Positions 26,375 to 63,424 of a DNA stretch of 64,000 bases are shown here, in pieces. The translations under genes were made by a program, and so were the position numbers. Under the pieces are notes generated by a model. That model ran no database searches, had not been told where the DNA came from, and saw only the letters and a program-made list of their open reading frames with translations. The first letter of the stretch is position 1. The number at the start of each line of letters is the position of its first letter. The stretch lies in IMG/VR virus record IMGVR_UViG_3300023184_000042, positions 62,001 through 126,000 of that record; one strand, given 5' to 3'. The DNA comes from a virus.

Positions 26375-29110
26375 ATGATAAAAAACATCATAGCAATTTA
26401 TCCAGGAAGGTTTCAGCCTTTTGGAAAACATCACGCAGCTGCTTTCAAGTGGTTACAAACTCAATTCGGAGCTCCAAATTGTTACATAGCAACTTCAAAC
26501 GTCGTAGACCCCCCAAAGTCGCCTTTTTCTTTCGTAGAAAAGGCAGATATAATAAGCCACTATGGTTTCAATGGCCAAGCAGTACAGACGAAGAATCCGT
26601 ATAAAGCGGAGGAGATTTTATCTAACATGAATCCACAAGATACAGCAGTGGTATTTTTAGTAGGTCAAAAAGATATGCAAGACGATCCTAGATTTGCAAT
26701 GAAGCCTAGAAAAGACGGAAACCCCTCATATTTTCAACCTTACGATAAAAATAAACAAGCACTACAAGGATTTGATAAACATGGATATTTAGTAGTAGCT
26801 CCACACGTTTCAATTGCAATACCAGGATTTGGAGAAATGTCAGGAACTACCTTAAGACAAGTGTTAGGAGATAAAAAACCAAGAGCACAAAAAGAAAAAA
26901 TATTCAAAGACATATTTGGATGGTATGATAAAAACACTGCAAATATGATTTTTGATAAACTTGAAGCGCTACAAGAAACTAAAAAATCAGCAATAGCTGA
27001 AATTATGAAAAAAAAGAATCAGATAACTTCCCGTTCTATTTCTGAAAATCAAACTCCTGTATTTTCAAAACAATGGTGGAATGAATCTTTAGATTTAAAT
27101 GAAGCAGTATCTATTGACGAGCTTAAATCTAAATTTAAAAAATTCATAACTGCACTTAAACAAGAAGGCAAAGAAACCAAACAAGCTTTTACTTTACTAG
27201 CTCAAGCAGCTCAAGGTAAAAAGAATTTGTCTGACGCGGAAAAGAAACAAATAGGAGATCAAATGAAAGATGTCCTTAAGACAATTGGCTTAACTGCAAT
27301 TGCATTAATGCCAGGAGGGCTTATAGCAGGATTGTTAATTAAATTCTTAAAAGCAGAACATTACATTACTCCTTCAGCATTTATGACTGAAGCTTCATTG
27401 AAACCTAATGTATGGAAAGATTTCAATTTAGCTGCGCTAACGCCTGAAGATATGGATACTGTATGGAACATGTATTCAGATACTTATTCCAAAGCAGGAT
27501 TAGATTTTTCAGCAAATAATGCAGGAGAACTTCAATCCAAATACAAAGCAGTTTATTTAGAAGATGTCGACGGAGATTCAATTGCAGATGCTTTTATTAT
27601 TTATAAGCCTACTCAATTTGGAAATAAAATTGCATTGTTAGGTACTAATGATAAGAGAGAAGCAAAGAAAGAAATGCTTACTCAATTATTTAAACTTTTA
27701 AAAACTCAAGGATGGTTTATAGAAGCTTCTATGAAAATGGAAGAAATTCTAGCTGCTAAATCTGATATTCCAGTAGTAACAGACGAAAAAGTTATTCAAG
27801 GGCTAGTAGGAGATAAAGGTTTAGAAATGATGGAAGACGGTTATTATAAACGTAAATTATCTAAAGTAAACAAAATAATTGTTAAGCGTTTATATGGTAA
27901 ACCAAAAACAAGCTCTTTGAAAGAAGGCGCTATGTCAGCAGCACAGCAGAAAAAGCACAATGAAAAAATTGAAAGATTAAAAAGATTTTTAGATAATAAT
28001 GTAGGTCGTCCATTTGTATATGACTTCAATGACTTTCCTAAAACAGTAGCTGGAGTTAAGATTCAAGAATCTCTTTTACGAGAAGGAGGAGCTGGAGGTC
28101 ATATGGCACATCCATTTAATATTAATTGGGTTAATACAGGAAAAGATTTAATCAAAGCATTTCAAATGTCAATTGATTATTTGAAAAAAGGTCCTGCTGC
28201 AGTGAAAATTGATGGTGTGAATGCTTCAATTCGATTTGTTGAGTTAGACGGTAAAAAGCAATTTGTAATGGATAGAGGTTCAATGAAACCTTTAGATGTT
28301 AAAGGAATTACCAAAGCAGAGTTAACTGATAGATTTGGAGAAGGTCATGGAATGATTAAAGTAGGAGGAACTGTTTTAGATATTTTTAATGAATCAATTC
28401 CTAAAATTCAAAATGAACTTAAAAAATTAAAATTGTGGGACAATCCAAATATAATGTTCAATATTGAATATGTAGCTGGGTCTACTAATGTTTTAGCTTA
28501 CGATAAAAATTTCCTAGCTATTCATGGTTTATTAGAATTAGAACAAGTAACTCCTAAACGAAGAGGTACTAATGAAATTGAGTATGATAAAGCAGCATTG
28601 CAAGAGCTATTAAATAAATTAGCACCTGCAGCTACTAAAAAAGGATATGAAGTAGTAGGATCTATTCCAACTAAATTAGATAGTAATCCAGATTTAAATT
28701 CAGAACTAAATAAAAAATATACAGTTAATTACAATGCTACTAAAAAAGAAACTAAAACTTTAGGGCAATGGCTAAATGACGCAAAAGTACCTAACACAGA
28801 ATTTAAAACAAAAGAAGGAAAAACTATATCTGCATTGTCTAAAGATGTGCTAATTAAAATTTCAGAAGGTACTAATTTAGAAGATTATGTTGCAGATGCA
28901 AAAGATTATCAAACTGTAATAGACGGGTTTGTAATTTATATGGCTACTATGAAGTTAGGAGATGCTGTGTTATCTAAATTATCTTCTCCACTTGGACCAG
29001 TGTCAGATCATGAAGGAATAGTAATTAGAGATGAAAGAATCAGCAATGCGCCTTTTAAAATTACTGGAAAATTTATTTTGGGAGGTTTAGCGAGCTCTTT
29101 TAAAAAATAA
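26375..29110 (+). CDS. Multidomain nucleotidyltransferase / ligase-like protein
   Basis: 911 residues. Residues 1-~200 are a NadM/NadR-like adenylyltransferase: 'PGRFQPFGKHH' carries the (H/T)-x-x-H type motif and 'MSGTTLR' the ISGTxxR type. Residues ~300-335 include a hydrophobic helix. Residues ~345-510 have a mixed fold, possibly GNAT-like (weak). Residues ~570-911 carry the order of a covalent nucleotidyltransferase (RNA/DNA ligase type): K611-I-D-G, 'FNIEYVAG', 'HEGIVIRDE' and 'FKITGKF'. (L/I)-x-E sites lie at the domain borders ('LDLNE' near 245, 'SSLKE' near 516, 'SLLRE' near 571), so the prohead protease might cut it. NAD or RNA repair is plausible; function is unproven. Confidence 0.65.
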   Translation: MIKNIIAIYPGRFQPFGKHHAAAFKWLQTQFGAPNCYIATSNVVDPPKSPFSFVEKADIISHYGFNGQAVQTKNPYKAEEILSNMNPQDTAVVFLVGQKDMQDDPRFAMKPRKDGNPSYFQPYDKNKQALQGFDKHGYLVVAPHVSIAIPGFGEMSGTTLRQVLGDKKPRAQKEKIFKDIFGWYDKNTANMIFDKLEALQETKKSAIAEIMKKKNQITSRSISENQTPVFSKQWWNESLDLNEAVSIDELKSKFKKFITALKQEGKETKQAFTLLAQAAQGKKNLSDAEKKQIGDQMKDVLKTIGLTAIALMPGGLIAGLLIKFLKAEHYITPSAFMTEASLKPNVWKDFNLAALTPEDMDTVWNMYSDTYSKAGLDFSANNAGELQSKYKAVYLEDVDGDSIADAFIIYKPTQFGNKIALLGTNDKREAKKEMLTQLFKLLKTQGWFIEASMKMEEILAAKSDIPVVTDEKVIQGLVGDKGLEMMEDGYYKRKLSKVNKIIVKRLYGKPKTSSLKEGAMSAAQQKKHNEKIERLKRFLDNNVGRPFVYDFNDFPKTVAGVKIQESLLREGGAGGHMAHPFNINWVNTGKDLIKAFQMSIDYLKKGPAAVKIDGVNASIRFVELDGKKQFVMDRGSMKPLDVKGITKAELTDRFGEGHGMIKVGGTVLDIFNESIPKIQNELKKLKLWDNPNIMFNIEYVAGSTNVLAYDKNFLAIHGLLELEQVTPKRRGTNEIEYDKAALQELLNKLAPAATKKGYEVVGSIPTKLDSNPDLNSELNKKYTVNYNATKKETKTLGQWLNDAKVPNTEFKTKEGKTISALSKDVLIKISEGTNLEDYVADAKDYQTVIDGFVIYMATMKLGDAVLSKLSSPLGPVSDHEGIVIRDERISNAPFKITGKFILGGLASSFKK

Positions 29111-31271: not shown

Positions 31272-32189
31272 ATGAAAACAAATTTAATTATAGAAGCAGC
31301 TAGATTACAAAAATTAGCTGGTATAAAATTAGCTGAAGATTTTAAAGATGACGTTGAAGATATTAAAAAAGCGCCATTAGCAACAGCAGTAGATAAAATT
31401 AGAGATTTAATTAAAGATCCGGATTTTATTGATAAAGCAACTTCAGGAGAAAAAGACGGTGCTAACAAAGACGAATCAATTAGTTTTTCAGAAGGAAATC
31501 CGTCATGTTTAGATATGTTACCAAGTCAAGCAGAAATTGGATTTGGTAATAGTTTAGCTGACATTTGCAATGACAAATTTGGAGCAATCGATTCTGCATT
31601 TTCTAATCCTGTTCTAATGCCGTCTAAAGCTGGTAAAATACCAGTATTAACTGCTAGAATTGGAAGTGATATAGTAATATTAGATGGACATCATAGATGG
31701 TCATTATGTTTTATGATCAATCCAGATGCTAAAATGAAATGCGATATTATGGAAACTCCAACAGGTTTCAAAGCTGCTGATGCTTTAAAAATTATGCAAT
31801 TAGCTATTGGCGTTGAAGCTGGCAAAGTAGTTACTAACCCATTTGAAGGTAAAGATTTAATGGCTGTATCTACAAAAGAAGTAATTAAATATGTTACTGA
31901 AAATATAGGAGAAAAGGAAATAGCTACATTTACAAAATATAAACAGGAATTGAATAGCAAAGAATCAATAGCAAAATATATTGGCGAATCACATAAAAAA
32001 ATAGTAGCCAAGAAAGGACCTTTTCCTAGAATTATAATGCCTCAAGCAGGAGATTCAGGAGCTTCACAAGATTCCGTAAATACTGCTTTGGAAAAAGGAG
32101 AAATCAATTTCAATGACCCATATAAAAAAGAATCTGTCAATAAAAGATTAGACTCCATGCTTAAAGAATCTTTTATAAAAATAAAATAA
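31272..32189 (+). CDS. ParB/sulfiredoxin-fold-like protein, putative packaged protein
   Basis: 305 residues from the ATG at 31272; an in-frame ATG at 31212 would overlap the previous gene by 56 nt and lacks the conserved N-terminus. The start 'MKTNLIIEAARLQKLAGI' carries an I-I-E8 cut site before A and shares R-x-Q-K-L-A-G-I/L with the scaffold's C-terminus. Residues ~115-170 have the ParB-like signature 'DIVILDGHHRWSLCF' (D-G-H-H-R). ParB-fold proteins bind CTP or DNA, or act as nucleases, and the version here is undetermined. If targeted to the prohead it could be ejected with the DNA (inference). Confidence 0.55.
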   Translation: MKTNLIIEAARLQKLAGIKLAEDFKDDVEDIKKAPLATAVDKIRDLIKDPDFIDKATSGEKDGANKDESISFSEGNPSCLDMLPSQAEIGFGNSLADICNDKFGAIDSAFSNPVLMPSKAGKIPVLTARIGSDIVILDGHHRWSLCFMINPDAKMKCDIMETPTGFKAADALKIMQLAIGVEAGKVVTNPFEGKDLMAVSTKEVIKYVTENIGEKEIATFTKYKQELNSKESIAKYIGESHKKIVAKKGPFPRIIMPQAGDSGASQDSVNTALEKGEINFNDPYKKESVNKRLDSMLKESFIKIK

Positions 32190-32190
32190 A

Positions 32191-32703
32191 ATGATCAAAT
32201 TAAAAGACATATTAAAAGAAGCTGAAGGAGAAGCTCCAAAGTGCCCAGTTGCTACTCAAAATGTAGAAGTAAATTTAGAGCACCGACAAATAGCTATTGA
32301 AAAGTATGGATATGGTCCTTTGAATCCTAATAATCCAAATGTAAAATTTTGGAAAGCAAAACAAGCTTTATGGAAAGAAGATACTATAGAAGGAGCTAAA
32401 TCTGCAAGATGTAATTCATGTGCTGCTTTTAATGTAACTTCTAGAATATTAAGCTGTATTGAAAAATCATTAGCTTCAGATGTAGTTCCGGAAGAAGAGC
32501 CAGTTGAGGAAGGAGAAGATATTCAAACTCAAACACCTGCTCCAGATCCGGAATTAGACGACACTGAAGGAGCTGATAAAGACGCTTGGGACACAATAGA
32601 AGCAGGTAAATTAGGATATTGTATGATGCATAAATTCAAATGTGCAGGTTCTAGAACATGTAATGCTTGGGTAACAGGTGGTCCAATTAAAGATAAAAAG
32701 TAA
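32191..32703 (+). CDS. Conserved Cys-rich phage protein with capsid-targeting-like N-terminus
   Basis: 170 residues. It begins 'MIKLKDILKEAEGEAPKCPV', with an L8-K-E10 site before A. Cysteines at 18, 74, 77 and 89 and a C-terminal cluster ('GYCMMHKFKCAGSRTCNAW') suggest metal binding. An acidic linker (~95-140) separates the halves. The 'GYGPLNPNNPN' and 'RCNSCAAF' blocks match a family common in marine T4-like phages, usually annotated as a structural or hypothetical protein. Retention of the targeting peptide suggests it is an internal head protein; function is unknown. Confidence 0.6.
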   Translation: MIKLKDILKEAEGEAPKCPVATQNVEVNLEHRQIAIEKYGYGPLNPNNPNVKFWKAKQALWKEDTIEGAKSARCNSCAAFNVTSRILSCIEKSLASDVVPEEEPVEEGEDIQTQTPAPDPELDDTEGADKDAWDTIEAGKLGYCMMHKFKCAGSRTCNAWVTGGPIKDKK

Positions 32704-38871: not shown

Positions 38872-39483
38872 ATGGAAAATAAAAAATTATTAGTAGACTA
38901 TATCACCTTTGAAGTTTCGCCAGAGAAGATAAACGAGTCTATAGAGAAAAACGGAGGCCGCTTAATGGTTAAAGGTACATTGCAAAGAGCAGACGCTTTA
39001 AATCAGAATGGACGTAAATATCCTAAAGATATATTAATGCGTGAAGCTAAAAAGTATTCTGATATTAATATCAAAGAAAGAAGAGCGTTAGGAGAATTAG
39101 ATCATCCAGATTCTTCAGTTGTCAATTTAAACAATGTATCTCATAACATTACTGAAATGCATTGGGAAGGCAATGATTTATGTGGAACTGTAGAAGTTTT
39201 ATCAACACCTTCAGGAAACATCTTAAAAGAATTATTCAAATGCGGTATTAAATTGGGCATCTCGAGCCGTGGTTTAGGGTCTGTCAAACAGCTTGGAGAA
39301 TCTGAAGTTGAAGTGCAAAATGACTTTGAATTAATTGCTTTTGATTTTGTATCTAATCCATCAACTCAAGGAGCGTTTTTAGCGCCAATGCATGAATCTG
39401 TTAATCACAATCAAACACATCAGTCATCTAAATATGGCAATGTAAATAGATTGATAACTGATATCTTAACTGACACTAAATAA
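38872..39483 (+). CDS. Prohead core protease (T4 gp21-like)
   Basis: 203 residues (T4 gp21 is 212). The family blocks are clear: 'LNQNGRKYPKDILMREAKKY', 'RRALGELDHP' with the catalytic H78, and 'KLGISSRGLGSV' with the nucleophile S131 or S132; an Asp near 158 may complete the site. The enzyme sits in the prohead core, cuts scaffold, capsid and internal proteins after (L/I)-x-E, and is then degraded, allowing capsid expansion and DNA packaging. The abundance of such sites near the N-termini of neighbouring products suggests a large substrate set in this phage. Its stop overlaps the next ATG (TAATG). Confidence 0.93.
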   Translation: MENKKLLVDYITFEVSPEKINESIEKNGGRLMVKGTLQRADALNQNGRKYPKDILMREAKKYSDINIKERRALGELDHPDSSVVNLNNVSHNITEMHWEGNDLCGTVEVLSTPSGNILKELFKCGIKLGISSRGLGSVKQLGESEVEVQNDFELIAFDFVSNPSTQGAFLAPMHESVNHNQTHQSSKYGNVNRLITDILTDTK

Positions 39484-42421: not shown

Positions 42422-44095
42422 ATGTCATTAAAATCAATCTTAAACGACAGTAACTCTCAAGTACGTCGTCAAATGGATGAGACCAAAGGCCTAGTAGGTA
42501 AATGGTCAAAGACTGGTTTATTAGAAGGTATTGATAGCGAATACGACAAACATGGTATGGCTATTATGCTTGAAAACCAAGCTAAACAATTAGTAACTGA
42601 AGCTAACTCGACTGGGCAAAACAGTAACTCTGAGCAATGGTCAGGTGTTGCTTTACCATTAGTAAGAAGAGTATTTGCTGAAATTGCAGCAAAAGATTTC
42701 GTTTCTGTTCAACCAATGAATTTACCATCAGGACTTGTGTTCTATATGGATTTCAAATACGGTACGGCTGCAGGTGGTTTCACAACTACTAACAATGCTG
42801 TAGGTGGTTTATCAACTACGGATTCAGGTTATCAAACTAACTCTGTATTTGGTGTAACTAATACAGTAGGTGACCCAACAGGTGGTTTATATGGTGCAGG
42901 TAGATTTGGATATGCAATTAATGATGCAAAAGTTAATGCTTATGTTTCTGCGTCTTTAACTCCAGGTGCTACTTCTGCGTCTATCGCTTCTGTAATTCCA
43001 GCAGTAGGTGCAGATGATGATTCATTTAACTATGATACAAAATTCATCAATACTTATTCAGGTTCAACTGCATTCAAAAAAATAACTATTTCTTCTTCAT
43101 TATTAACTAATGCAGATTTAAATGGAGCTAGAGCTTTCGCTATCACAGGATCAGGAATCTCTGCTTACTTCCCACAATTCACAGCAATTAATAACACTGC
43201 GTCTGGAACGACAATTTCATTCATTGTTTCTGGATCTATTCCATTAACAGCTACTGCAGCTCACGTTATTTATCAAACTCAGCCAACTGCTAATGGTAGA
43301 GGTGACTTTGAAGATACGACAGGAAACATGACAGACATCAATATTCCAGAAATCAACGTAGAGTTGAAATCAGAGCCAATTGTTGCTAAAACAAGAAAAT
43401 TAAAAGCTATTTGGTCTCCAGAGTTTGCTCAAGATTTAAATGCATACCACTCAATCGATGCTGAAGCTGAATTAACTTCTATGTTATCTGAATATATCTC
43501 TCAAGAGATTGATTTAGAAATTTTAGATATGTTAATCCAAAATGCAGTAACGACTGAAAGATGGTCTGCTCAAGTAGGATTTGAATATGCTTCAGCAACT
43601 GATCAATTTGCTCAATCTGGTTTCACAGGAACTGCTTATACTCAAGGAACTTGGTTCCAAACTTTAGGAACTAAAATCCAAAAAGTATCTAACAAAATTC
43701 ACCAAAAAACCATGAGAGGTGGAGCAAACTTCTTAGTATGTTCTCCAGACGTTGCTACTATATTAGAGTCTATCCCAGGATATGCTGCTGATACAGACGG
43801 AACTAAAATGCAATTTGCAATGGGAGTTCAAAAAGTAGGTATGTTGAATTCAAGATTTACAGTATACAAAAACCCTTATATGACTGATAACGTAATATTA
43901 TTAGGATATAGAGGTGCTCAATTCCTTGAGACTGGTGCTGTATATGCTCCATATATTCCACTTATCATGACTCCATTAGTATACGATCCAACAAACTTTA
44001 CTCCACGTAAAGGTGTTATGACTCGTTACGCTAAGAAAATGGTAAGACCAGAATTCTATGGTACTATTAAAGTACACGGATTGCATTTAGTATAA
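42422..44095 (+). CDS. Major capsid protein (T4 gp23-like)
   Basis: 557 residues (T4 gp23 is 521). The HK97-fold gp23 signatures are clear: 'GVALPLVRRVFAEIAAKDFV', 'MDFKYGTAAGG', 'AKTRKLKAIWSPEFAQDLNA', 'EYISQEIDLEILDMLI' and a C-terminal 'YAPYIPLIMTPLVYDPTNF'. An N-terminal propeptide of 60 residues ends at 'KQLVTE' before ANST, close to the position of the T4 cut after residue 65. The propeptide begins 'MSLKSILND', similar to the targeting peptides of internal proteins here. A strong terminator follows the gene, as expected for a highly expressed product. No gp24-type vertex paralogue is in the window. Confidence 0.97.
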   Translation: MSLKSILNDSNSQVRRQMDETKGLVGKWSKTGLLEGIDSEYDKHGMAIMLENQAKQLVTEANSTGQNSNSEQWSGVALPLVRRVFAEIAAKDFVSVQPMNLPSGLVFYMDFKYGTAAGGFTTTNNAVGGLSTTDSGYQTNSVFGVTNTVGDPTGGLYGAGRFGYAINDAKVNAYVSASLTPGATSASIASVIPAVGADDDSFNYDTKFINTYSGSTAFKKITISSSLLTNADLNGARAFAITGSGISAYFPQFTAINNTASGTTISFIVSGSIPLTATAAHVIYQTQPTANGRGDFEDTTGNMTDINIPEINVELKSEPIVAKTRKLKAIWSPEFAQDLNAYHSIDAEAELTSMLSEYISQEIDLEILDMLIQNAVTTERWSAQVGFEYASATDQFAQSGFTGTAYTQGTWFQTLGTKIQKVSNKIHQKTMRGGANFLVCSPDVATILESIPGYAADTDGTKMQFAMGVQKVGMLNSRFTVYKNPYMTDNVILLGYRGAQFLETGAVYAPYIPLIMTPLVYDPTNFTPRKGVMTRYAKKMVRPEFYGTIKVHGLHLV

Positions 44096-44149: not shown

Positions 44150-44171
44150 CTGATTAAAAGGCACTTGTTTG

Positions 44172-44186
44172 ATATTTATTATAAAT
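44172..44186 (+). promoter_or_regulatory. Putative late promoter element
   Basis: ATATTTATTATAAAT, preceded by G; starts 24 nt before the ATG at 44196, following the capsid terminator. Confidence 0.6.
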
Positions 44187-44195
44187 TTAGTTATT

Positions 44196-44843
44196 ATGAA
44201 AGAACCTAATAGAGTTAGAAAAAATGATATTAAGTACAATATCGTTTTAAATGAAGAACAAAAACAAGCAAAGCAATTAATAATAGACAATCAAATTGTT
44301 ATTATTACGGGCAGAGCAGGGTCAGGAAAATCGTTAGTAGGAGCTCAAGCAGCTCTTGATTTTTTAAATAAAAAACAATGCGATAAAATTTTAGTGACTC
44401 GAAGTGCTATTGAAGTTGGTCGATCGTTAGGATTTCTTCCTGGAGCTTTAGAAGACAAATTCAATCCATATATGGAAGCTCTTATTGAGAATTTGTATAA
44501 GTGTATGGACAAAATTAAAATAGATGATTTTGTAAAAACTGAAAGAGTTCAAGCACTTCCGGTGCAATTTATCAGAGGTAAAACAATAGACGATGTGTTG
44601 ATTGTAGAAGAAGCACAGAACCTTACGAAGCCTGAGATGCTTGCCATCTTAACACGCCTTGGAAAGACCGGTAAAATCATTATAAACGGGGATAATGAAC
44701 AGCAGGACACAAACGAATCTATTTCAGGTTTAACCTATGCAATAGAGCTCTCTAAAAAGATAGATGGCATTGAATGGATTAAATTAAAAGAGAATCACAG
44801 AAGTGATTTAGTAGGTAAGATACTAGATTATGAATATAATTAA
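44196..44843 (+). CDS. phoH: PhoH-like P-loop ATPase
   Basis: 215 residues from the ATG at 44196; an upstream TTG at 44169 would place the promoter-like element inside the gene. Walker A 'GRAGSGKS', 'LVTRSAIEVGRSLGFLPGAL', Walker B 'VLIVEEAQNL' and 'IINGDNEQQD' are all diagnostic of PhoH, a RecA-like/SF1-related ATPase. PhoH genes are frequent in marine T4-like phages; the role is uncertain, with links to phosphate stress and RNA metabolism proposed. It heads a unit with a kinase and the endolysin. Confidence 0.9.
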   Translation: MKEPNRVRKNDIKYNIVLNEEQKQAKQLIIDNQIVIITGRAGSGKSLVGAQAALDFLNKKQCDKILVTRSAIEVGRSLGFLPGALEDKFNPYMEALIENLYKCMDKIKIDDFVKTERVQALPVQFIRGKTIDDVLIVEEAQNLTKPEMLAILTRLGKTGKIIINGDNEQQDTNESISGLTYAIELSKKIDGIEWIKLKENHRSDLVGKILDYEYN

Positions 44844-44846
44844 ATT

Positions 44847-45413
44847 ATGAAATTAAAAGATATATTAGATACAGTTTTAGAAGATATTGAAAAAGGATGG
44901 CAAAAACAATTTGTACAAGGTCAAGTATATTCTAATCCATTTGCTAATTCATTTAATCAAATAAATGAAGGAGTAGTTAAAACTGTAATTATAATGATAG
45001 GATTGCCTGGCTCAGGAAAATCTACATTTATTAAAAAACTACCTAGCGCTCCTGTAATTTGCTCTGCAGATAATTATTTTGAATCACCTGATGGTAAATA
45101 CAATTTTGATGCTACTCAATTAGGTAATGCTCACAACCAATGTAGAAACAAAGCTGCATTGGCAATGCATCAACAAAAACCTACTATTGTAATAGATAAT
45201 ACAAATTTAACAGACAAAGAAAGAGCTCCATATGAACAGCTAGCAGAAGAAAATGGCTATAAAATTTTATATGTAGTATTTGAACCAAATAAACAAAATA
45301 TTAAGAAACTAGCACAGCGTAATCTTCATGGCGTAGAAGCAGCTAAACTAGAAGTTATGATGAAAAGATTTCGACCACCTAGTGGCGAAAAAGGAAAAAT
45401 AATCTTTAAATAA
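44847..45413 (+). CDS. P-loop polynucleotide-kinase-like protein with targeting peptide
   Basis: 188 residues. The N-terminus 'MKLKDILDTVLEDIEKGW' is of the capsid-targeting type. An I39-N-E41 site before G lies just before the catalytic domain, so cleavage would leave an intact kinase. The P-loop is G52-L-P-G-S-G-K-S-T60. 'VICSADNYFE', 'TIVIDNTNLTDKE' and 'ILYVVFEPN' fit the AAA_33/T4 PNK-like zeta-kinase family. T4 Pnk repairs RNA or DNA 5' ends; here no phosphatase domain is present. Packaging and ejection into the host is inferred from the peptide and cut site; the substrate is unknown. Confidence 0.75.
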   Translation: MKLKDILDTVLEDIEKGWQKQFVQGQVYSNPFANSFNQINEGVVKTVIIMIGLPGSGKSTFIKKLPSAPVICSADNYFESPDGKYNFDATQLGNAHNQCRNKAALAMHQQKPTIVIDNTNLTDKERAPYEQLAEENGYKILYVVFEPNKQNIKKLAQRNLHGVEAAKLEVMMKRFRPPSGEKGKIIFK

Positions 45414-45427
45414 CTTAATTAATTACT

Positions 45428-46234
45428 ATGTTACTAAAAAACGGGTCATCTGGAGAAGATGTAAAAAAATTACAAGCTAAATTAGGTTTAACTGCAGACG
45501 GTGCATTTGGACCTGGAACAGAAGCTAAAGTAAAAGAATGGCAAACTGCTAATGGTTTAACTGCAGATGGAATTGTAGGGGATGGAACTTGGACAAAAAT
45601 GTTTGGAGCCCCAGCTGCTGCAATACCAAATTCAAATTTTAAATTAGATAAATTAAAAGGACACGTGCCTGATTCAGTAATAGCTCAAATTCCTTCAACT
45701 GCAGCTAAATTCGGAATTACTACGTCTTTAAGACTTGCTCATTTCTTAGCTCAATGCGGTCATGAGTCTGGAGGATTCAAAGCAGTTTCTGAAAATGTAA
45801 ATTATTCGGCAGACGGCCTTAAAAAAATATTTGGAAAATACTTTCCTGGCAATCTATCAGACTTATATGCAAGACAACCTGAGAAAATAGCTTCTAGAGT
45901 TTATGCTTCTAGAATGGGTAATGGAGATGAAGCTTCAAAAGAAGGATTCAAATTCAGAGGAAGAGGCTTTATTCAATTGACAGGTAAATCTAATTACACT
46001 AATTTTACTAAATTTATTGGAGAAGATTGTGTTGGAAATCCTGATTTAGTAGCTACTAAATATCCATTAGCTTCAGCTGCATTCTTCTTTGACTCAAATA
46101 AACTATGGGCTATCTGTGATAAAGGTGCGGATGATGCGACAATAACGGCAGTAACTAAAAGAGTGAATGGAGGTACTATTGGATTAGCTGATAGAATCAA
46201 GCACTTTAAAGAATTTTATAGTTTATTATCTTAA
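45428..46234 (+). CDS. Endolysin: peptidoglycan-binding domain plus GH19 glycosidase
   Basis: 268 residues. Residues 1-60 are a PG_binding_1 domain ('GSSGEDVKKLQAKLGL', 'ADGIVGDGTWTKMFG'). Residues ~75-268 are a GH19 chitinase/lysozyme-like domain: 'LAHFLAQCGHESGGF' with catalytic E113, 'GFKFRGRGFIQLTGKSNYT' and a C-terminal 'VTKRVNGGTIGLADR'. It would cleave the glycan strand of peptidoglycan at lysis. No signal peptide, so a holin or similar is needed. It stands between PhoH/kinase and the neck genes, away from the spanin-like pair. Confidence 0.92.
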   Translation: MLLKNGSSGEDVKKLQAKLGLTADGAFGPGTEAKVKEWQTANGLTADGIVGDGTWTKMFGAPAAAIPNSNFKLDKLKGHVPDSVIAQIPSTAAKFGITTSLRLAHFLAQCGHESGGFKAVSENVNYSADGLKKIFGKYFPGNLSDLYARQPEKIASRVYASRMGNGDEASKEGFKFRGRGFIQLTGKSNYTNFTKFIGEDCVGNPDLVATKYPLASAAFFFDSNKLWAICDKGADDATITAVTKRVNGGTIGLADRIKHFKEFYSLLS

Positions 46235-53029: not shown

Positions 53030-53383
53030 ATGACACCAGATAAATTCAAACAACTTTTAAAGGAATTTGCTCCACAAAGACAACTTCAAGAAGCAGATGT
53101 AATTCCTGTAGGGCCAGATGGTAATGAAATCACAGATAAAAGAGTCATAGCCAACTTGAACCTAGCAGTAAAGGCAGTAGATGCAAGTCTACGACCTAAG
53201 TTAGTGCAGATACTTCAAGATCCGGATGCAGCAAAAGCATTGAAAAATCCTGCACAAAGAGCAGCGTTGGTAGGGGCAATTGCAATTGCTTTTGGAATGA
53301 CAGAGCAAGAATTTTCTCAAATAGTAGGAAAGATAAAAGGAATGTTAAAAACCACAACTGCTCCTGAAAATGATCAAGCTTAA
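53030..53383 (+). CDS. Putative internal head protein
   Basis: 117 residues. It begins 'MTPDKFKQLLKEFAPQRQLQ' with an L19-Q-E21 site before A. The mature part would be helical ('RVIANLNLAVKAVDASLRPK', 'AQRAALVGAIAIAFGMTEQE') with an Ala-rich hydrophobic helix. No family is recognised. The gene overlaps the next, also peptide-tagged, gene by 14 nt; the two form a two-gene unit between the tube and hub genes, away from the head locus. Confidence 0.55.
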   Translation: MTPDKFKQLLKEFAPQRQLQEADVIPVGPDGNEITDKRVIANLNLAVKAVDASLRPKLVQILQDPDAAKALKNPAQRAALVGAIAIAFGMTEQEFSQIVGKIKGMLKTTTAPENDQA

Positions 53384-53912
53384 ACCTATAGCAGAGCAAG
53401 TACTCAATGAAGCTGAAGAAACTATTACGTGGGGAGAAGTTTCTAAATTACTAAATGCAATTAAAGGAAAGCAAAACAAAACTGAAGTTGCTGGAGTATT
53501 AAAAACAGCGGGTAAATGGGGTGCTTCACTTCTTCCTGGGTTATCAATTATATCTACAGTATTAGATACTTATGATAATATATCAGATATCAAAGACGTT
53601 GCTAAGTCATTATTGACAATTGGTAAAAATGTATCTAATAACGAAATGAAAAATCCTAAAGGTTCAGATTTTAAAAATTTAACAGGTCCATTTTGGGATG
53701 CACTTAAATTATCTCCAGAGGTATCAACTTTACTAGATGATAAAGTAGAAGCTATGTTCATCAATCAAGTAATTATACCAGAGTTAGGAAAGCCAGGAAA
53801 TGAAAATCAACCAATACCAAACATGGATATTGAATTAGGTAAATGGTTAAACAAATCAGGATTAGAAGACAAAGCTGAAATTCACTTTACAGGTAAATCA
53901 GGAAACCTTTAA
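53370..53912 (+). CDS. Putative internal head protein with hydrophobic segment
   Basis: 180 residues. It begins 'MIKLKPIAEQVLNEAEETI' with an L12-N-E14 site before A. A moderately hydrophobic stretch ('WGASLLPGLSIISTVLD') at ~50-67 could associate with membrane; the rest is mixed helix with an acidic, Pro-containing C-terminus. No family is recognised. Overlap of 14 nt with the previous gene suggests coupled translation. A possible virion or ejected protein by its peptide (inference). Confidence 0.5.
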   Translation: MIKLKPIAEQVLNEAEETITWGEVSKLLNAIKGKQNKTEVAGVLKTAGKWGASLLPGLSIISTVLDTYDNISDIKDVAKSLLTIGKNVSNNEMKNPKGSDFKNLTGPFWDALKLSPEVSTLLDDKVEAMFINQVIIPELGKPGNENQPIPNMDIELGKWLNKSGLEDKAEIHFTGKSGNL

Positions 53913-61604: not shown

Positions 61605-63424
61605 TGGCAGATACTATTTTTTATACTGCAGTAGACGGAGGAGTTACAGGAGCATTAAATGCTCGTAAAAACATATACTCAGCTGCAGTAAGAGATTCCG
61701 GAGCTCATGCATGGCTTAATCAAAAAATGGCTTATGCATCTGCAACTGCGTTTCATAAAAAAGCTGGAAGGTCAGCATCACTTCAATTAGTTGTTGGAGG
61801 AGGTATTGGAGGAAAAGGATTATATGAACCAGGTCAATCTTCAGCAGGTACTTTCAATCCAAAGCCACATATTACTTCAGTTAAAATATCTAGTGCAGGA
61901 GATTTTGGGTCTGTATTAAAATGCGACATATCTTTTACAGTTTACAACTTAAACGATTTAGATGGTAAGCAAGCATTTTTTGATTTAGGAGCTGAAGTAA
62001 ACGTAAAATATGGATGGCATAAAGATGGCGGTGCTGGCGGATCGGCCGGCAATTTCAAAGGATTTGTATATAATTTTAGTTTTCAAGTTAATTCTGTAGG
62101 TGGATTTGATTGTGTATGCAATGCAATGGGAGAAGGAATGGCTATTTTAGGAGCCTCTGCTAATCCTGCTTCAGACGCTAAAGGAAAAGAAATTGCAGAT
62201 GCTTTAGGTAACAAAGTACATGGAGATACTGTAATGGGAGCTTTAGAAGTTATAGTTGATGGGTTAGAAGGTCAGGCAGATCAAATTGTTGGGCCTGACG
62301 GAGTAGGAAATGTTAAATTTCCAGATTCATGGGGTACGGGAGCAGGAGAAGATGGCGAAGAAGCTACTCCACATTATTACGTATCTCTAGAAGCGTTTGT
62401 TAAATTAGCAGTTGAAAAAATACATGATACTTCAGCTAAGCTTAAAGACATATCTATCAAATGTGATGGAACTGTAACAAAAGGAAATGTTCCGGCAGGA
62501 GGATCTAATATGCTAGTATCAGGAAATCCAAAAGAAATTTTATTGCCAGAGCCTTACGCTTATTATGGAGGTAAAATGAAATTAGGATTTAATACATATC
62601 AAGGAGAATTTGGCGCCGGCGATTTAAGTAAAATCATGATTAGTATAACTCACTTAAATGATATTGTAAGTAAATTAGCAGATGATAAAGGTAACAATGC
62701 AAAATCTGCAGATACGTCAATTGCAAAATTATTTGCTAAGATATTTGATTCTATTAACATAAATACAGGTACAAGATTTAAATTGTCTATGTCACAGAAT
62801 CCTAAAAATCCTATGGAATTTTTAATTGTAGATTCTAATTATATAGACGGCACGATATCGCCATATCCTATAACAGCTGTTACTAGAGATAGTATTTGCA
62901 GAAGCATTTCATTAGTAGCTAAACTACCTTCAGAAATGGCAACAGCAGCTTATGTAGAAAATACATCCACTTCATCTCCTGCAGGCGCTGTAGTAGCTCA
63001 AATTAATGGAGTTACTGAAAAAGACACTCCTACTAAAGGAGACCCAACAACTTCATATGCAGATGCCAGAATAAAAATAGACGCAACTGGGCCTCCTGAT
63101 CCTAAAGATCCAGACGGAATTGGACCTTCACCAAAAAATGTAAATGCGTTAAGAGCTGCAATTAAAAGAATGTATACTTCAGGAGAAACTGCTAATGGCG
63201 TCAAACCTGGAACTGAAGCATTTCCAGTGCCAATTGAATTTTCATGCACTCTAGATGGAGTAAATGGATTTCTATTTGGAAATGCTATTACATGTAATTA
63301 TCTTCCAGCAGCTTATAAAAAAGCTAAAATATGTTTTACTGTTACTAAAGTAGATCATAATATTTCAGGAAATGACTGGACGACAACTTTAAACACTGTT
63401 TGTAGAGTGCAACCAACATATTAA
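61604..63424 (+). CDS. Baseplate hub protein
   Basis: 606 residues. The N-terminal ~200 residues ('HITSVKISSAGDFGSVLKCD', 'FFDLGAEVNVKYGWHKDGG') are beta-rich and resemble the hub domain of gp27/gpD-type proteins. The C-terminus 'PIEFSCTLDGVNGFLFGNAI', then 'KICFTVTKVDHNISGNDWTT' is a typical hub ending. No lysozyme domain is present, so this is the hub rather than a gp5-type spike. Gene order (tape measure, tube cap, wedge, hub) agrees. It has a Gly-rich N-terminal loop and a central Asp/Pro-rich linker. Confidence 0.7.
   Translation: MADTIFYTAVDGGVTGALNARKNIYSAAVRDSGAHAWLNQKMAYASATAFHKKAGRSASLQLVVGGGIGGKGLYEPGQSSAGTFNPKPHITSVKISSAGDFGSVLKCDISFTVYNLNDLDGKQAFFDLGAEVNVKYGWHKDGGAGGSAGNFKGFVYNFSFQVNSVGGFDCVCNAMGEGMAILGASANPASDAKGKEIADALGNKVHGDTVMGALEVIVDGLEGQADQIVGPDGVGNVKFPDSWGTGAGEDGEEATPHYYVSLEAFVKLAVEKIHDTSAKLKDISIKCDGTVTKGNVPAGGSNMLVSGNPKEILLPEPYAYYGGKMKLGFNTYQGEFGAGDLSKIMISITHLNDIVSKLADDKGNNAKSADTSIAKLFAKIFDSININTGTRFKLSMSQNPKNPMEFLIVDSNYIDGTISPYPITAVTRDSICRSISLVAKLPSEMATAAYVENTSTSSPAGAVVAQINGVTEKDTPTKGDPTTSYADARIKIDATGPPDPKDPDGIGPSPKNVNALRAAIKRMYTSGETANGVKPGTEAFPVPIEFSCTLDGVNGFLFGNAITCNYLPAAYKKAKICFTVTKVDHNISGNDWTTTLNTVCRVQPTY

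Follow-up and report, generated by a model that had tools for sequence, protein, structure and literature searches.

Known systems and the locus

Strings of several enzymes that a protease cuts apart are familiar in RNA viruses and unusual in tailed phages, whose head cargo is usually encoded as one protein per gene. In T4, the internal proteins (IPI and others) and Alt carry capsid-targeting sequences that are cut by gp21; the internal proteins are the precedent for head proteins that are targeted, cleaved, and injected (PMC3012670, PMC5694885), and a counter-defence use is established for IPI (PMC3012670). The polyvalent proteins of phages and conjugative elements are large, multidomain proteins with exchangeable conflict-related domains, and they are predicted to be packaged and injected (PMC5512222). 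In the papers that we consulted, these two groups are the nearest concepts to the subject of this study, a 911-residue protein encoded by one open reading frame (ORF) in 64,000 nucleotides of viral DNA (positions 62,001 to 126,000 of IMG/VR virus record IMGVR_UViG_3300023184_000042, here called the window).

We consider it probable that this protein is a cargo polyprotein, packaged in the head and cut by a protease, that serves RNA repair and counter-defence. Cleavage, packaging, injection, enzyme activity, RNA repair, and the role of the nucleotidyltransferase are what we infer; fold classes, conservation of sites, exchange of cassettes, separate ligase genes with propeptides, and an encoded protease are what we observe by computation. 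The precursor would become part of the prohead, where the S77 protease of the phage would cut it after (L/I)xE into a nucleotidyltransferase of the NadM fold, two small cassettes, which are optional, and an RNA-ligase-like enzyme with the mature N terminus GGAGGHM. The released pieces would be injected along with the DNA. The ligase, together with a T4-Pnk-like kinase, may then mend RNA, most likely tRNA, of the host or the phage after defence nucleases have cut it, and the remaining pieces may serve early takeover or counter-defence, with phages swapping them as cassettes between cleavage sites.

This phage has in common with the T4 internal proteins (L/I)xE-type sites, an S77-type protease, and N-terminal propeptides on separate cargo genes. 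T4 cargo, however, consists of single proteins, whereas here several enzymes and cassettes would lie in one precursor with internal sites. As in polyvalent proteins, several conflict-related domains occur in one phage polypeptide, in a virion gene context. Unlike in polyvalent proteins, the borders carry predicted sites for a separate head protease and some relatives are split into genes there; a built-in peptidase domain, which is common but not universal in polyvalent proteins, found no match in the 911-residue protein in a Pfam search.

Conservation of the candidate cleavage sites

The original prediction described a NadM-like and a ligase-like domain joined by a hydrophobic helix and a mixed-fold domain, with protease sites between them. 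Its ORF, coordinates, and length agree with the ORF list and the translation, and this ORF (26375-29110) is the 1 full-length match to the protein in its own genome. The motifs lie where they were placed (GRFQPFGKHH at residues 11 to 20, SGTTLR at 156 to 161, KIDG at 611 to 614, EGIVIR at 880 to 885, and FKITGK at 894 to 899), the proposed E-Y motif is NIEYV around E698, and both the hydrophobic helix (about residues 300 to 327) and the mixed-fold module (340 to 517) are present between the end domains. In an AlphaFold2 (AF2) model of the whole protein, the N-terminal, helical, and ligase regions are confident and the mixed-fold module is modelled poorly. The label GNAT-like for that module, like the label Pol-beta-like used below, was given by sequence inspection alone.

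The (L/I)-x-E sites between the domains (E243, E517, E565, and E570), as well as MxE339, all fall within segments predicted to be disordered (AF2 pLDDT <50). We rejected E831 before G as a site because it lies in the ordered part of the folded ligase. Within this single protein, [LI]xE[AG] is seen 4 times versus 1.2 expected (P=0.03), an excess over chance so mild that we do not use such counting as evidence. The real evidence is comparative. Searching IMG/VR brought up 27 loci that encode the protein or much of it and about 340 matches to the ligase; the closest 80 relatives in each scan were read. A scan of contigs from bacterial and archaeal genomes yielded 1 fragment, which makes the family essentially viral. 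Glu stands directly before GG in 45 of 48 distinct ligase junctions, and [LI]xE, the signature of T4-type head cargo at the mature start, in 42 of the 48, against a background of about 1% per position. Positions -7 to -12 of the junction carry little information, as the upstream residues drift. A hydrophobic-x-E before A, G, or S also marks most module borders (ligase, 44/48; short module, 13/14; helical module, 5/5).

These data bear on the explanation that the protein stays one multifunctional enzyme, with catalytic domains that cooperate (e.g., NAD supplied or consumed by the nucleotidyltransferase for an RNA ligase or RNA capping), and that LxE is simply a common linker sequence at recombination points. 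Most relatives do have the end domains fused (of 106 distinct ORFs with the nucleotidyltransferase, 88 run on into this ligase), and the number of sites in the 911-residue protein exceeds chance only mildly. Yet P3 and P1 are conserved and the linker is not, very different cassettes fit between the end domains, and in one relative (L095) the two enzymes are separate adjacent genes, with the ligase second and starting MNLIKILLSE/GGTGG. We therefore regard a single enzyme as unlikely. Cutting by a prohead protease, as originally proposed, accounts best for the comparative evidence, in which sites persist while flanks and cassettes change, and it is also backed by the separate ligase gene, the border of a Tad3-family cassette, and the encoded gp21-type protease.

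Cassette exchange and separate ligase genes

Depending on the phage, the sequence between the two enzymes ranges from about 25 residues up to one or several cassettes. The slot may hold helical, GNAT-like, short (GYMSPEQ...FPKTVYGV), Cys-Trp, DUF6934-like, or Pol-beta-motif modules, or HNH endonucleases. Both the GNAT-like and the DUF6934-like cassettes have separate homologues with propeptide-like starts in the genome studied here; the former is a gene that starts MLKLADLLKE... (32% identity, E 1e-15). In L020, the slot holds DUF5661 (Pfam 3.4e-14, residues 217 to 273) and then a Tad3-family cassette (Pfam 2.6e-30), whose homologues in unrelated phages align from residue 288, right after AVLTE287 (before S), and in another phage (L161) a homologue is a free-standing 124-residue gene. 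The name is taken from Pfam PF25185, a Thoeris inhibitor family, and solely on the strength of that name the cassette may be an immunity blocker.

In L165, L167, L187, L191, L194, L196, L206, L207, and L223, the same nucleotidyltransferase is followed by a Pol-beta-motif module and DUF6267 (Pfam 3.7e-36 in L165) instead of the ligase, and in L165, L196, L206, and others LxE precedes both. L182 has a Pol-beta-motif module and then the usual ligase. The Pol-beta assignment comes solely from the motif GTTGKKxxSGDLDL...QTDF; a PDB search with this module gave nothing useful. DUF6267 carries KWDGSP and GGEGYVV motifs, which suggests that it is another ligase-like family.

Separate ligase genes are also found in L032 and L034, where a short leader (MIKLKSL...) ends KSLLLE/GGAGG or KSLLYE/GGAGG, and an N-terminal targeting sequence is present on the ligase genes of L032, L034, and L095. 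Fused linkers keep an internal leader right before GGAGG (MKLKSLINE in L080, MRFKDLIIE in L084, and MKLKDLIVE in L091). The same architecture occurs in WWT39297.1 of phage Mel-JY01 (nucleotidyltransferase ... NNNIIAE/GGLGGHM ... ligase), with the same gene order towards the terminase. That protein has diverged (38% and 27% identity) and is without the extra cassettes, and its N terminus, MGKLINILLSE, resembles a targeting sequence.

We tentatively put forward the broader possibility that the gene works like a magazine, whose counter-defence proteins are swapped as cassettes between head-protease sites and delivered by the virion; one gene would provide RNA repair, nucleotide chemistry, and inhibitors (for example of the Tad3 family), packaged together and released only in the maturing head. 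If the polyprotein reading is right, (L/I)xE borders would offer a rule by which proteins that virions deliver against host defences can be recognised in sequence; candidates would be whatever occupies the slot between the nucleotidyltransferase and the ligase, or follows a propeptide of this kind.

HNH cassettes with a Ros/MucR-like zinc finger lie in frame directly before the GGAGGHM codons in L017, L027, L040, and L121, in several backgrounds. At these junctions GG follows a Cys (LLMC, LLLC) where Glu would otherwise stand; the Cys also occurs in L055, which has no HNH cassette, perhaps as a scar. As an Rfam search gave no match to a group I intron at the insertions, we set that explanation aside and treat them as in-frame cassettes.

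The ligase-like domain and its proposed role in RNA repair

A ligase-like fold around K611, which the original prediction called for, is indicated by the predicted structure. The AF2 model of the domain, built with 45 relatives, has a pLDDT of 90.6 and a pTM of 0.85. In a Foldseek comparison with the PDB, its top ten matches are all RNA ligases, T4 Rnl1 first, with a weak best match (E 0.014, prob 0.63). Among 45 diverse ligase domains, K611 and the I, D, and G of motif I (KxDG) are invariant, as is E698, and E880, G881, V883, R885, and K895 are at least 90% conserved. Motif V reads KxTG, not KxK; of the predicted K-x-T-G-K, present in this protein, the first Lys is K895, and the final one is not conserved among the 45 domains. 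There is no PHROG match and no convincing PDB sequence match to the domain, which is placed by structure prediction alone, and membership in the Rnl1 sequence family was rejected, as no curated RNA ligase sequence model matches it. Although the single match is weak, we accept the C-terminal domain as a predicted covalent-nucleotidyltransferase ligase because the top matches are all of one kind and conservation extends to the catalytic motifs. The same domain occurs in a 971-residue viral protein (BFVD A0A218ML49) that is annotated as SET domain-containing, possibly a further type of cassette.

Both NAD use and RNA repair had been suggested as functions. Two observations favour RNA repair: the genome also encodes a Pnk-like kinase with a comparable propeptide (T4 polynucleotide kinase 1ly1 is its best PDB match, 8e-7), and Pol-beta-motif modules occupy the slot in relatives. 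NAD use is disfavoured by the altered motif of the nucleotidyltransferase and by the missing match to NadV in a possibly incomplete genome record (see below). Pol-beta-type enzymes have been proposed as partners of phage RNA ligases (PMC7824862). T4 RNA ligase 1 and T4 polynucleotide kinase, a tRNA-repair pair, are the best fold match of the ligase and the best match of the kinase, respectively. In contrast to the T4 pair, the ligase lies outside the Rnl1 sequence family, and ligase and kinase appear to be virion cargo, the kinase as a probable co-cargo protein. If so, RNA repair by kinase and ligase would be carried in the virion and be active from the first moments of infection.

The nucleotidyltransferase domain

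Foldseek matches the N-terminal domain to NaMN/NMN adenylyltransferases (1yul, 2qjo; prob 1.0), and by sequence it matches phrog_395 (4.9e-4); PF01467 matches the protein only below the cut-off. In phages, NadM carries a Nudix domain in fusion, and every phage that has it is reported to have NadV as well (PMC9503650). Here, the HxGH motif is altered to GxHH (GRFQPFGKHH versus GRFQPFHKGH in 2qjt), invariantly in the family. A Nudix domain found no Pfam match in the 911-residue protein, and the genome record (132 kb, possibly incomplete) gave no NAPRTase match that would indicate NadV. We therefore rejected membership in the NadM sequence family, and NAD synthesis is the weakest part of our reading. 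In two relatives, L074 and L093, the partner fused to the ligase is another nucleotidyltransferase (GGFKPLTGAH in L074; the start of L093 is cut off), which suggests that the first enzyme was replaced by a distant one.

The non-canonical GxHH motif, together with the ligase that alone is kept as a separate propeptide gene in L032 and L034, would suit a precursor that is cut but in which the N-terminal domain or linker serves only for targeting or scaffolding, and the ligase (or whichever cassette comes last) is the one enzyme delivered. However, nucleotidyltransferase residues including G11-H20, S156-T158, and R161 are invariant in 15 sequences, and a related nucleotidyltransferase is itself a virion protein of cyanophage S-CREM2 (PMC10665884). 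We consider this arrangement quite improbable. Mass spectrometry of S-CREM2 virions found gp154, gp156, and gp160; the authors warn that carry-over of strongly expressed proteins, not separated from the virions, might account for such finds (PMC10665884). By their sequences, gp154 is a nucleotidyltransferase starting MKNFSSFLTE before A, gp156 has the Pol-beta motif, and gp160 is a Cys-Trp module. Called a "cytidylyltransferase" (PMC10665884), gp154 is likewise of HIGH type, but it is a separate gene with no ligase fused.

Returning to a polyprotein that is cut in the head and delivered, several points weigh against it. The 911-residue protein is without an N-terminal targeting sequence and begins directly with the nucleotidyltransferase. 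The site is present at the start of the Cys-Trp module in only 4 of 11 contexts, at several cassette borders P3 is occupied by V or M instead of L or I, and Cys replaces Glu at 3 or 4 of the 48 ligase junctions, depending on the comparison (beside HNH cassettes and at one related junction). In Foldseek, the ligase reaches E <0.001 with no PDB structure, and Pfam fails to recognise this domain (no match up to E 5). Finally, the gp154 domain of S-CREM2 is only remotely similar to the N-terminal domain studied here.

Genome context and other candidate cargo

The genome encodes an S77 prohead protease (PF03420), as expected for T4-type head cargo, and the features of the window are listed in Table 1. 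The gene for the 911-residue protein lies about 4.5 kb upstream of the terminase, in the late structural block. Its position bears on the explanation that the protein acts inside the infected cell, in RNA repair or NAD metabolism, and is never in the head, as would be usual for phage RNA repair and NAD salvage (PMC7824862, PMC9503650). Against this, the gene stands near the terminase in a late block, conservation in the cultured Microcystis phage Mel-JY01 extends to the next gene and the terminase, and head-protease-type sites and propeptides recur. A purely intracellular role is improbable in our view.

Table 1. Features of the window, with positions in the window and the evidence for each
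Feature	Positions	Strand	Evidence
911-residue putative polyprotein ORF	26375..29110	+	ORF and translation; relatives in IMG/VR
HIGH-superfamily nucleotidyltransferase domain, residues 1-200, NadM/NadD fold, motif GRFQPFGKHH	26375..26974	+	Foldseek, phrog_395
Predicted cleavage site LNE243 before A	27095..27106	+	Disordered in AF2; same kind of site before helical module in relatives
Helical module with hydrophobic hairpin, residues 244-339, optional cassette	27104..27391	+	AF2 confident at 247-327; many relatives without it
Weaker candidate site MTE339 before A, between helical and GNAT-like modules	27383..27394	+	ITE before A in L001, MKE before A in L053
GNAT-like module, residues 340-517, optional cassette	27392..27925	+	Free-standing homologue gene in same genome
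Predicted cleavage site LKE517 before G	27917..27928	+	Disordered; same site in L001
Short module GAMSAAQQ...FPKTVAGVKI, residues 518-570, optional cassette	27926..28084	+	Hydrophobic-x-E precedes it in 13/14 distinct contexts
Double site IQE565/SLLRE570/GGAGG, conserved candidate ligase release site	28061..28087	+	Junction conservation in relatives
RNA-ligase-like covalent nucleotidyltransferase domain (predicted), residues 571-911	28085..29107	+	AF2 model and PDB fold match
K611 (KIDG), predicted AMP-accepting lysine	28205..28207	+	Invariant in 45 sequences
Probable separate cargo protein, MKTNLIIE before A	31272..32189	+	N-terminal motif
Probable separate cargo protein, MIKLKDILKE before A	32191..32703	+	N-terminal motif
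Prohead protease, Peptidase_S77 (T4 gp21 family), predicted processing enzyme	38872..39483	+	PF03420 1e-29, phrog_207 4e-55
Major capsid protein, T4-like, candidate maturation site LLE35 before G	42422..44095	+	phrog_138 1e-75
T4-Pnk-like 5' kinase, 41-residue N-terminal extension ending NQINE/GVVK	44847..45413	+	PDB match, phrog_505
Probable separate cargo protein, MIKLKPIAEQVLNE before A	53370..53912	+	N-terminal motif

Outside the window, a block of the same genome (L109:3072-16264) has about 17 of 20 small genes with starts of the MIKLKDLL- or MKKSELRxLIRE-type, and it is likely, judging from these starts, to encode a large set of uncharacterised head cargo proteins. The starts in this block are also given as MIKLKDLLKE- or MKKSELRSLIREQVK-type. 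The late gene block further includes a PhoH-like protein (44169-44843) and a protein with peptidoglycan-binding and glycoside hydrolase 19 domains (45428-46234).
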